A stretch of 27,369 nt of DNA from a virus. The notes under the pieces are model-generated. The model made no database searches. It had not been told where the DNA came from and saw only the letters and a list, made by a program, of their open reading frames with translations. This document shows, in pieces, positions 1 to 3,763 of this stretch. A program made the position numbers and the translations under genes. The stretch spans positions 1-27,369 of IMG/VR virus record IMGVR_UViG_3300005086_000009. One strand, given 5' to 3'. Each line of letters begins with the position of its first letter. Position 1 is the first letter of the stretch.

Positions 1-224
1 CCCCTCTCTCCTCCAAAGGGAATCAAGCCAATCATCCAATGGCACCAAGCGGCTCCACGGGTCCTTCCTAGGGCCTCAGATACAGGGGTCGCCATCAGCG
101 CGGGCCTTCTTCGCATGGGGGATTTTTGTTGGGTGGGAAAATGGGAATTTCGTTGTGATTCTATTTGGATGTGGTGGCTGCGTTGATGTGAATGCCGGTG
201 CGGCTGATTCGATGAGGAGTGTTC

Positions 225-2060
225 GTGTCTGACGATAAGAGCATGCTGAAGCGGCCTGACTTGGAGCTGCCAGAAGGATTTGAGCTTCGGCAAACCGATG
301 ACGGGGTGTGGGACGTCTGCGTCAAGCCGGGCGCGACGTATGACGAGAGGACGCTCGGTGAGCTGACCCGACTTCGGGCCGAGCTGGAGGCGCTGATCTC
401 ACCGGCCCCGACTGCGGCCGATCCGGCCGAGCCGAATGGCGGACCTGTGGAGACGGAACTCATGGCGCCCTGGGTGAACCTCGATCCGTCCTTCATCTTG
501 GAATGCATGAGCCGCAACGTGACTGGAGACGCCGAGCTATACGCAGCCATGCACCGAGGGCAGATGGCCATCAACATCACCACCGGCGGCGACCGCAAGA
601 CGCCGGAGACCCTCCGGTTCAACGGCCATCACTGGGAGATGGACGAGGCCAGCGTCTACGCCCACTCCCTGGTGGAACACGTGGCGCTTGCCTACTGGCA
701 CGCCCACCAGGTGACGACGGTCTCCATGTTCCGGCGGCGGATTGAAGTCCTCCAGAACGACCTGAAGCAGGCCACGGAAGATTCGGTCAAGGCGCACATC
801 AAGGGCGACATCAACTCCCTTGAAAGCCAGCTCGCCGAGCGAACCAAAAGCGTCAAGAAACGGATCAGCCAGCTGCGGTCGCCGACGCGCGAGTCCGGAG
901 TGTTGACCAAGGCCCGTTCCATCACGGGCATGCCGCTCAACTGCAAGTCCAGCTGGCTCGACAACAACCCCCACCTGCTGCCCGTGGCCAACGGCATCAT
1001 CGACCTGGAGGACGGGGGCAAGTTCCGCCCAGGCCGTCCGGAGGACTGGATGGTTCGCGCAGCGCCTGTGGAGTGGAGGGGGGCGGATTTTGACCGCCAA
1101 CCATGGATCGAATTTCTGAACGGCGTCTACACCAACCCGGAGACGAACGAGATCGAGACGGAATTGATCAAGTTTGCCCAGCGGTTGCTCGGCTATGCGT
1201 TGCTCGGAGCAACGCCGCACCACATCCTGCCGATCCTGACCGGCCGCGGCCGCAATGGTAAATCGACGCTGCTCAACACCATCTATTCCGTGCTCGGTCC
1301 CCTGGCTGGAGGCCTGCCTGCCGAGCTGCTGCTCGACCAGGGAGTGAACCGCTCGGCGGATTCGCCGACGCCGTCGATCATGTCTCTCAAGGGGCTGCGC
1401 CTGGCCTGGGCATCGGAGACTGCCGAAGGGCGCAAGTTCTCCATTGAGCGAGTCAAGTGGCTGACCGGCGGCGACCCGCTGACCGGCCGCCATCCGAACG
1501 ACAAGTATCCGACGACGTTCGACCCGACCCACCTCATGTTCCTGCTGACGAACAACCTGCCTTCAGCGCCAGCCACGGACTACGCGTTCTGGAAGCGCGT
1601 CATGGCCATCCCGCACCGGATCTCGTTCGTCCATGGCGAACCGACCCAGCCATGGGAGCGGAAGATAGATCCCGATCTGGATAAGAAGCTGGCGGCTTGC
1701 CTGCCTGGGATTCTGGCCTGGCTGGTCGAGGGGTACCTGGCGTGGAAGGAATTCGGACTCTGCCCGCCTCGGGTCGTGACTGAGGCGACGGACAAGTACC
1801 GTGAAGGCGAGGACACCCTGGGCGAATTCCTCTTCGAGTGCTGTGAGATCGGCGAGAACCTCAGGGTCGGTGCGTCCAAGATCTATAGCGTTTTCGAGGA
1901 GTGGTACCACAAGCGGGTCGGCAAGTTTCCTCCCGCTCAAAAAAAGTTCGGGAACTGGATGAATGACAAGGGGTTCGAGCGGATCAAGTCCGGGACGATG
2001 GTCTACATAGGCCTCCAGCTCAAACAGCAACACCAGGATGGGTTCCACCTGGAAGATTAG
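225..2060 (+). CDS. P4/D5-family phage replication helicase (primase C-terminal type)
   Basis: Predicted superfamily 3 type DNA helicase that would open the phage origin and drive fork movement. About 611 residues from the GTG at 225, chosen because GAGGAG at 214-219 lies 5 bases upstream; an in-frame GTG at 219 has no SD. Residues 168-219 are charged and helical, likely a coiled coil. A Walker A motif, GRGRNGKST, lies at residues 340-348 with Lys346, followed by LKGLRLAWASE, which resembles the Walker B region, and by LLTNNLP, which resembles the sensor motif of P4 alpha and D5-like proteins. The C-terminus looks like the winged-helix end seen in this family. There is no zinc or Toprim primase domain here; those are in the next gene, so the P4 alpha functions appear split. 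The gap after it is the candidate origin. Family call is firm, exact role is inferred. Confidence 0.88.
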   Translation: MSDDKSMLKRPDLELPEGFELRQTDDGVWDVCVKPGATYDERTLGELTRLRAELEALISPAPTAADPAEPNGGPVETELMAPWVNLDPSFILECMSRNVTGDAELYAAMHRGQMAINITTGGDRKTPETLRFNGHHWEMDEASVYAHSLVEHVALAYWHAHQVTTVSMFRRRIEVLQNDLKQATEDSVKAHIKGDINSLESQLAERTKSVKKRISQLRSPTRESGVLTKARSITGMPLNCKSSWLDNNPHLLPVANGIIDLEDGGKFRPGRPEDWMVRAAPVEWRGADFDRQPWIEFLNGVYTNPETNEIETELIKFAQRLLGYALLGATPHHILPILTGRGRNGKSTLLNTIYSVLGPLAGGLPAELLLDQGVNRSADSPTPSIMSLKGLRLAWASETAEGRKFSIERVKWLTGGDPLTGRHPNDKYPTTFDPTHLMFLLTNNLPSAPATDYAFWKRVMAIPHRISFVHGEPTQPWERKIDPDLDKKLAACLPGILAWLVEGYLAWKEFGLCPPRVVTEATDKYREGEDTLGEFLFECCEIGENLRVGASKIYSVFEEWYHKRVGKFPPAQKKFGNWMNDKGFERIKSGTMVYIGLQLKQQHQDGFHLED

Positions 2061-2103
2061 CGCAAAGGTCCGCATCGTCCACCTATCGTCCGGCCTATGG
2101 TCC
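2061..2103 (-). repeat. Left iteron array, four GGAC-type units
   Basis: Read on the minus strand, four adjacent units each begin GGAC: GGACCATAGGCC (2092-2103), GGACGATAGGT (2081-2091), GGACGATGC (2072-2080) and GGACCTTTGCG (2061-2071). They fill the sequence directly after the helicase stop codon with no spacer. The same unit types recur in the opposite orientation at 2278-2319. Confidence 0.75.
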
Positions 2104-2113
2104 TGGTCTCAAC

Positions 2114-2129
2114 CCCCTGAAATCAGGGG
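2114..2129. promoter_or_regulatory. Perfect 16-bp palindrome, possible operator
   Basis: CCCCTGAAATCAGGGG has 7-base arms around a central AA. No T-run follows, so it is not a standard terminator, and the 2-base centre is too tight for a good RNA hairpin. It looks more like a binding site for a dimeric protein. It lies 30 bases before the TATAAT hexamer at 2160-2165, for which I see only a poor -35 match. Confidence 0.4.
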
Positions 2130-2277
2130 CAATGGATACGTGCAAGGGAGCGTAGGGAGTATAATCCCTTATACAAAAATATCTTGAATCAGAAAGGTCT
2201 CAAAAAGATGAAAAAAGAATTTGGTCCCTATAGTCCCATATCTGCCGGAACCGTTGCCACACCATGCTTCAAGGCGT

Positions 2278-2319
2278 GGACCTTTGGCCGGACCATAGCG
2301 GACCATGCGGACGATAGGC
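2278..2319 (+). repeat. Right iteron array, four GGAC-type units
   Basis: Four adjacent plus-strand units begin GGAC: GGACCTTTGGCC (2278-2289), GGACCATAGC (2290-2299), GGACCATGC (2300-2308) and GGACGATAGGC (2309-2319). Each has a close counterpart among the four inverted units at 2061-2103. The array ends just before the primase SD. Confidence 0.75.
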
Positions 2320-2335
2320 AGCGGGGGGTGGCGTG

Positions 2336-3763
2336 ATGGCTCCGGAGCTGGTGGATCTGGTGCGGGCGCGGGTGGGTGGCGCAGGCTTCCAAGCCCCCGT
2401 CGGCGGCCGCGGGGAATACCAGGGGCCGTGTCCTGTCTGCGGCGGCAAGGATCGCTTCCGCGTCTTTCCAGACCAGGAGCCCTCCGGCGAACTGGCCGTG
2501 AAGGCCGGGGCGCGTGGCGGGTACTGGTGCCGCCAGTGCGACATCTCCGGCGACTACATTCAGTGGTTGGTGGACATCGAAGGGTGGGATTGGACAAAAA
2601 TTTTCGAGTTTCTCGGGGTAGAGGGCGAGGCCCCGGCGCAACGCATCATGCCGAAACCGAGACCGGCACCGCAGCAGGCAAGGGTCGGGCGGGAGCTGAC
2701 CGATCTGCTGCCCGTGGAGCTGCCGCCGGAGAAATGGCGGGAGCACGCCTTGAAGTTCGTGAACGAGTGCGCGGCGCAGCTGGAGCACAACCCCCACCTG
2801 GTGCAGTGGCTTGAAGGCCGTGGAGTGCCGCTCTCCATCGCCCGAGAATCCAGGTTGGGGTGGCACGCCGGCAAGCCGCAGCGGAGCAACCGTCCACCCT
2901 GCGACTACCGCAGCCGAGAGGGGTGGGGACTGCCGCGCATTCTCAATGACAACGGGCGGCCTAAATCCATCTGGCTGCCCCGGGGGCTGGTCATTCCGAA
3001 TTTTCGGGATGGCGAACTGGCAGCCGTGCGCGTGCGACGTCCCAATTCTGACGTGCCGCCGGATGACGACAAGTACAAGCTTGTGGCCGGGTCCAATCAG
3101 AAAGTGACCATGATCACGCCTAACGCCCGGGACTACGTGGTGGTGGAAGCCGCCCTGGACGGGCTGGCCATCGCAGCCGCCAAGGTGGACGGCGTCGGCT
3201 TCTGCTCCATGGGCACCCTGACGGCATACCCCGACATCCAGGCGGCCGAGTGGTTGTCCGAAGCCAGGCACATCCTCAACGCCCTGGACTTCGAGCCGCA
3301 AGGGAAAGGCGAGAAACACGGAAACAAGTTCCGCCATTGGTGGGGTGAGCGGTTTCCGCAGTGCCGCCGCACTCCGGTGCCCGTGGGCAAGGATCCCGGT
3401 GAACTGGTCGAGCAGCTCGGCCGCGCCGCCCTGGGAGATTGGCTCAGATCCCTGACTGCGCCAGCCATCGACGTGTCGGCCTTGGCCCCCAAAGGAACGG
3501 TAGAAAGCGCGCCTCTGCCTACGACGAAGAAATACCAGATCCCCGACGACATCGAGGAATTGCGCGTCATCCTGTCCGTCAGCGGAACGGACATCCATGT
3601 CGGAGAATCCGGCGCGTTGCTGGGGTGTCAGGGACCTGAGGAATATCACGGCCGGGTCGCCGTACTGGCCCACCGGCCTGTGGTCAGGAAGTGGATCCAG
3701 GAGGTGGGTGAGTTGGTTGTCAACAGCCGGAACTTCATGAAACCGCTGGAGAAGACGCGATGA
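2336..3763 (+). CDS. Phage primase with zinc ribbon and Toprim-like domain
   Basis: Predicted DNA primase partner of the upstream helicase. About 475 residues from the ATG at 2336; a run of G at 2322-2327 is the likely SD, and a GTG at 2333 is a less well spaced alternative. The N-terminus has a four-cysteine zinc ribbon, C32, C35, C65 and C68, with the CPVCGGKDRF signature typical of P4-type and CHC2-like primases. Near residue 267 the stretch DYVVVEAALDGLAIA matches the start of a Toprim domain (Glu271), followed by a LDFEPQG segment where the acidic DxD-like motif is expected and by a GKDPGEL motif seen near the end of such domains. There is no ATPase motif, so helicase activity must come from the neighbour. 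The last roughly 100 residues are not recognised. It overlaps the next gene by 4 bases. Confidence 0.82.
   Translation: MAPELVDLVRARVGGAGFQAPVGGRGEYQGPCPVCGGKDRFRVFPDQEPSGELAVKAGARGGYWCRQCDISGDYIQWLVDIEGWDWTKIFEFLGVEGEAPAQRIMPKPRPAPQQARVGRELTDLLPVELPPEKWREHALKFVNECAAQLEHNPHLVQWLEGRGVPLSIARESRLGWHAGKPQRSNRPPCDYRSREGWGLPRILNDNGRPKSIWLPRGLVIPNFRDGELAAVRVRRPNSDVPPDDDKYKLVAGSNQKVTMITPNARDYVVVEAALDGLAIAAAKVDGVGFCSMGTLTAYPDIQAAEWLSEARHILNALDFEPQGKGEKHGNKFRHWWGERFPQCRRTPVPVGKDPGELVEQLGRAALGDWLRSLTAPAIDVSALAPKGTVESAPLPTTKKYQIPDDIEELRVILSVSGTDIHVGESGALLGCQGPEEYHGRVAVLAHRPVVRKWIQEVGELVVNSRNFMKPLEKTR

Follow-up and report, generated by a model that had tools for sequence, protein, structure and literature searches.

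A putative phage replication origin with two layers of opposed repeats directly 3' of a P4-family helicase gene

Described origins associated with SF3 helicases

The replication origin of the Streptococcus phage Sfi21 (AF115103) lies, like the locus described here, immediately after the 3' end of a gene for a D5-type helicase, orf382. The annotated 302-bp non-coding origin of Sfi21 contains a perfect example (48/48) of an arrangement hereafter called the tetrad: two tandem units 8–9 bp apart, a core of about 61 bp, and two inverted tandem units. The Sfi21 units are spaced 8 bp apart and are accompanied by outer units. Sfi21 differs from the present locus in its unit, TTAGTTAC, which is not of the GGAC type, in its 71-bp core of 11% GC, and in its other neighboring genes. 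The 302-bp region is reported to be a replication origin that, acting in trans, confers phage-encoded resistance (PMC6356513). The annotated rep_origin of phiadh occupies the same place and also has the tetrad layout.

The SaPI origin likewise has two iteron sets flanking an A+T region. SaPI Rep and SCCmec Cch2 offer a further parallel as self-loading helicases with a C-terminal DNA-binding domain and with iterons directly downstream of their own gene (PMC7581432). Rep acts on those iterons through its C-terminal domain, apparently as two hexamers, and the C-terminus of the D5-type Cch2 binds repeats downstream of its gene (PMC7581432); the Cch2 unit differs (AAGTG) and is present in three copies only. 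Origin binding through the C-terminal domain is common to P4 alpha, SaPI Rep and Cch2 (PMC4234260, PMC7581432).

The P4 system of ori, crr and the alpha protein shares with the present locus an SF3 helicase, oppositely oriented repeats (type I in P4), and a similar C-terminal fold (1ka8). It differs in needing two separate sites (ori and crr), in the fusion of primase to helicase, in an ori lying away from the alpha gene, and in opposed repeats about 35 bp apart, shorter than here. Replication of the Sulfolobus plasmid pRN1 requires a 100-bp element that lies 3' of the P4-family helicase gene; the authors of that work described the element as a stem-loop with no iteron structure (PMC4234260). 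A mutation in the stem was rescued once symmetry was restored, and three-base deletions in the loop abolished replication (PMC4234260). In our analysis the arms of this element are 9-bp tandem units with GTCC/GGAC around a 66-bp A+T core. pRN1 differs in being archaeal, in its fused primase domain, and in that outer arrays are not clear. An earlier sequence-only reading of the present DNA had regarded the two-sided layout as different from that of P4. The layout is not foreign to known origins: crr and ori of P4 both carry type I repeats in both directions, and Sfi21, phiadh and pRN1 are two-sided.

The helicase–primase gap and its two layers of repeats

The window, that is, the whole stretch of DNA analyzed, is a 27,369-base virus record in which the genes run in one direction: a helicase, a 272-bp gap, a primase, the small and large terminase, portal and tail. 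The helicase scored 176.7 bits against TIGR01613, above the curated cut-off of 108.7, and so belongs to the P4 family. A Pox_D5 match was found in 33 of 45 relatives, and the window helicase scored 16.9 bits, under the 21.4 cut-off. Its nearest named relatives (75% and 67% identity) are in Pseudodesulfovibrio genomes. The gap is very probably the replication start point of a phage of sulfate-reducing bacteria. The features are as follows.

219–2060, plus strand: SF3/D5-type initiator helicase of the phage/plasmid primase P4 family, comprising the helicase part only (TIGR01613, phrog_1156 E 1e-78, D5_N)
2063–2103, minus strand: left outer array, four GGAC units facing away from the center, namely GGACCTTTG (2063–2071), GGACGATGC (2072–2080), GGACGATAGG (2082–2091) and GGACCATAGG (2094–2103)
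2146–2163, plus strand: left inner pair from the tetrad search, degenerate units GGGAGCGTA GGGAGTATA, 9 bp apart, facing the center
2164–2219, no strand: A+T-rich core by base composition, 56 bp, 27% GC, presumed melting site
2220–2237, minus strand: right inner pair from the tetrad search, units GGGACCAAA GGGACTATA, 9 bp apart, facing the center
2278–2318, plus strand: right outer array, four GGAC units facing away from the center, namely GGACCTTTG (2278–2286), GGACCATAGC (2290–2299), GGACCATGC (2300–2308) and GGACGATAGG (2309–2318)
2333–3763, plus strand: Zn-ribbon primase in the same gene run (Zn_Ribbon_Prim E 1e-11; phrog_849 DNA primase E 2e-19)

The eight outer units, each of 9–10 bp, are of the GGAC(C/G)AT type plus two copies of GGACCTTTG, and form two outward-facing arrays within which the units are spaced 9–12 bp apart. 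The first unit starts 3 bp past the stop codon of the initiator helicase gene, so that the repeats follow this gene immediately on its 3' side. Each unit was located directly, and the positions and orientations given in the sequence-only reading were borne out, as was its value of 75% A+T over 2161–2220, recomputed as 75%; of the extent it proposed, 2061–2319, the arrays are real and the right end falls one base beyond the last unit. When the gap was dinucleotide-shuffled 2000 times, no shuffle had four same-strand GGAC at 9–12 bp and one had a run of three. Among the top-ranked windows of a window scan, runs of four GGAC occurred only in those over the helicase–primase gap. The window contains four tandem GGACSAT pairs (0.01 expected), all inside the gap and nowhere else in the window; in a near-identical relative (a 48.6-kb record) they were confined to the same gap. 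The gap of the closest relative differs at 7 of 272 positions, none of them inside the eight units. A second, crr-like array was found neither in the window nor in the 48.6-kb relative, records that may be incomplete, and one array locus is present where the P4 origin has two repeat sites.

An unguided search between the arrays returned the inner pairs as the best tetrad (34/48), a score equaled by 1 of 300 shuffles. These inward-facing pairs are a second layer absent from the sequence-only reading, and they are degenerate here, with GGGA.. instead of GGACSAT. The dyad centers of the inner and outer layers fall at 2191.5 and 2190.5 (about 2191), and the spacers between the layers measure 42 and 40 bp, giving near-perfect symmetry. 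The position of the left inner pair is kept as GGAACCTTA GGGACTATA in locus L154 and as GGAACCTTA GGGAGTATA in L155, and both the 75% and the 67% relative retain the inner pairs in place despite single-letter changes. The arrangement is the Sfi21-like one of opposed tandem units around an A+T core (core about 60–70 bp), here with a core of about 56–58 bp and degenerate inner units. The automated tetrad test, applied to the window, chose the right inner and right outer arrays.

A near-perfect 16-bp dyad, CCCCTGAAATCAGGGG, was observed in the left spacer at 2114–2129 and is partly altered in L154 and L155. GC skew shifts mildly across the gap, from 0.015 to 0.117, a change too weak to serve as proof of an origin, and it was rejected as such. 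Hairpin priming sites in the outer–inner spacers were unsupported over 29 loci, with a mean folding z of about -0.15.

Conservation of the layout across related helicase genes

A motif-only scan of viral contigs gave the first lead linking GGACSAT arrays to such helicases. Many of its matches resemble coding repeats with a period of 9 or 12, and for this reason the scan was treated as a lead only and conclusions were drawn from a protein-homology set. To avoid circularity, the helicases of that set were gathered by protein similarity, with the query rows L020 and L006 coming from the motif scan. The comparison covered 63 distinct helicase–primase gaps (median 309 bp), mostly from metagenome fragments, and most of the gaps carry repeats. 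The units vary by lineage and include GGACCAT/GGACGAT, GGAGGAT, GGAAGAT, GGATAGT, GGAGGGT, AGGACTTA, CATGAGTA, TTATGACG and more. Exact 6-mer direct repeats numbered 56, 53, 32, 35 and 34 at spacings of 8, 9, 10, 11 and 12 bp, against about 3 in shuffles, and were hardly found at spacings of 6–7 or 13–16 bp. The tetrad scored above all 20 shuffles in 47 of the 63 gaps; in the other 16 of 63 the strict tetrad did not exceed the shuffled controls. Among the 31 A+T-rich cases, 25 had a core of 57–68 bp, and the median core length in relatives was 61 bp.

Tetrad scores of at least 38 were reached in 33/62 helicase 3' flanks of the first set and in 25/45 of a second set, made up of helicases outside the first, a few of them near copies of its loci. 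The controls, for which flanks of both sets were pooled, gave 1/82 in 5' flanks, 0/100 at 1.5 kb downstream and 0/135 in shuffles. The tetrad lies 3' of SF3 helicase genes irrespective of what comes next, also where the downstream gene is not this primase; the layout is conserved and coupled to the 3' side of the helicase gene. The sequence-only reading had proposed aligning the gap over related prophages, and had held that missing or scattered units in phages sharing this helicase and primase would speak against an origin. The comparison gave the opposite result, with layout and spacing kept though the unit sequence changes.

The layout rule is not universal, because phages with a gene directly after the helicase (Arthrobacter Asa16, Curtobacterium Kalimba, Rhodococcus Apiary and RcCronus) have no tetrad there. 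In Lacticaseibacillus R18.1 and Gordonia Patos the gap contains repeats, but the strict tetrad is absent. The core is longer in the mycobacteriophages and in Nostoc, and there it is not rich in A+T. Three Anayavirus mycobacteriophages carry AGCACAGAT/GGCACAGAT arrays in the tetrad layout after the primase/helicase gene (L245:4480–4730, L247:4270–4550 and L255:3718–3850), with a core of about 92 bp that is not A+T-rich, and in Nostoc phage Nsp-JY21 the primase gene is followed by ten repeats of the ATCCTCC/GGAGGAT type (L260:3964–4115); all are unannotated origin candidates. At L081:5892–6118 a GGACCAT array lies within the 3' end of a D5-type helicase gene and not after it; an origin can therefore be embedded in coding sequence. 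Across 31 related gaps (for example L020, L164 and L167), the top strand of the right spacer is A-rich (25/30 loci, mean AT skew +0.26) and the core is T-rich. The A-rich right spacer and T-rich core break the dyad and might thereby set the direction of unwinding.

From these comparisons, and by analogy with known origins, gap 2061–2332 is in all likelihood the replication origin of the phage, at which the helicase C-terminal domain would read the units and two hexamers on the inner pairs would melt the core. The support is strong because arrangement and spacing persist in relatives whose units differ in sequence, and the origin candidacy advanced from the sequence alone thereby gained support from relatives and described origins. 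The gap might instead be a transcription control region, with the units as operators of a repressor or of an autoregulated helicase and the core as a promoter for the primase–terminase genes. The gap does lie between co-directional genes, and a promoter search of it returned a single weak promoter-like site, inside the core on the minus strand; a promoter may also sit within an origin. However, this sole match has the wrong direction, the tetrad stands 3' of SF3 helicase genes whatever follows, with or without this primase, and it is also present in experimentally supported origins (PMC4234260). We consider transcription control very unlikely as the role of the gap.

Recognition of the units and the proposed origin design

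Unit similarity covaries with the helicase C-terminal domain, whose identity gave the best correlation (Mantel 0.515, 46 loci). The partial correlation for the C-terminus was 0.295 given the ATPase domain, 0.459 given the primase zinc ribbon and 0.445 given the primase TOPRIM part, and the reverse partials (ATPase or primase given the helicase C-terminus) were near zero, in tests that are liberal for related sequences and whose permutations do not fully remove shared ancestry. A winged helix is predicted at about residues 518–601 of the helicase. The AF2 model of the helicase (pLDDT 89) found its best fold matches in AsfvPrimPol hexamers/dodecamers (E 5e-29). The C-terminal model matched the P4 origin-binding domain 1ka8 over 80 residues at 3.5 Å with a Z of 8.1, close to the value that unrelated winged helices can reach when the domain is this small, and matched RFX DNA-binding domains at Z 8.8–9.5. 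By fold only, the domain qualifies as a C-terminal winged-helix origin-binding domain.

Either the helicase or the primase had been named earlier as the binding protein. The helicase part of that proposal stood, with covariation pointing to the C-terminal domain as the probable reader, and the primase part was disfavored. The primase gene is adjacent and encodes a zinc ribbon, but primase similarity explains nothing given the helicase C-terminus (partial r about 0), and the layout is also found beside helicases without this primase downstream. Recognition by the primase or another protein is thus rated a shade lower still than transcription control. Least probable of all is that the inverted arms form a DNA hairpin, as in the stem-loop origin proposed for pRN1, and are not protein-binding iterons: the arms are complementary, and rescue of the pRN1 stem mutation by its partner is the best argument for a hairpin (PMC4234260), but each arm is itself made up of tandem repeats (identity within an arm 13.4/16), the outer units do not suit one stem, and a hairpin is disfavored because its register pairs no better than the cross register (13.6 vs 13.3; 9 vs 6 loci, 16 equal, among 31) and because six loci have unequal arm spacing that breaks the stem.

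For the origin with the helicase as reader, we infer binding, hexamer assembly, melting, priming and direction by analogy. The winged-helix C-terminal domain of the SF3/D5 helicase would bind the GGAC-type units. The inward-facing inner pairs beside the A+T core would seat two opposed helicase hexamers, as proposed because of established SF3 helicase behavior and the symmetry of the element, and the outward-facing outer arrays may load or hold further protein. ATP-driven helicase action would then melt the core, and the product of the adjacent primase gene could make primers on the exposed single strands before the host replisome takes over. Such double-hexamer loading is likened, by analogy, to that of SaPI Rep, SCCmec Cch2 and P4 alpha.

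The probable origin is a further case of the known helicase-coupled iteron kind, and the unit-independent layout rule is its most notable aspect; no published description of this rule was found among the open-access papers searched. We lean slightly towards the view that phages, satellites and archaeal plasmids with P4/D5-type SF3 helicases share a single origin design: a tetrad right after the helicase gene, with an A+T-rich core of about 60–70 bp and units that change with the C-terminal domain. If this is true, the pRN1 'stem-loop' would be a pair of iteron pairs, and iteron and stem-loop origins would be united. SV40 T antigen and papilloma E1 form facing double hexamers, and the fixed core length would likewise be the distance set by two facing hexamers. 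This makes a fixed-distance prediction for double-hexamer loading, with which the three-base deletions in the pRN1 loop already agree (PMC4234260). Given a P4/D5 helicase gene, the origin would be predictable within the next few hundred bases with no need of the unit sequence, and the pairing of C-terminal domain and unit would offer a natural code for studying origin recognition by SF3 helicases.
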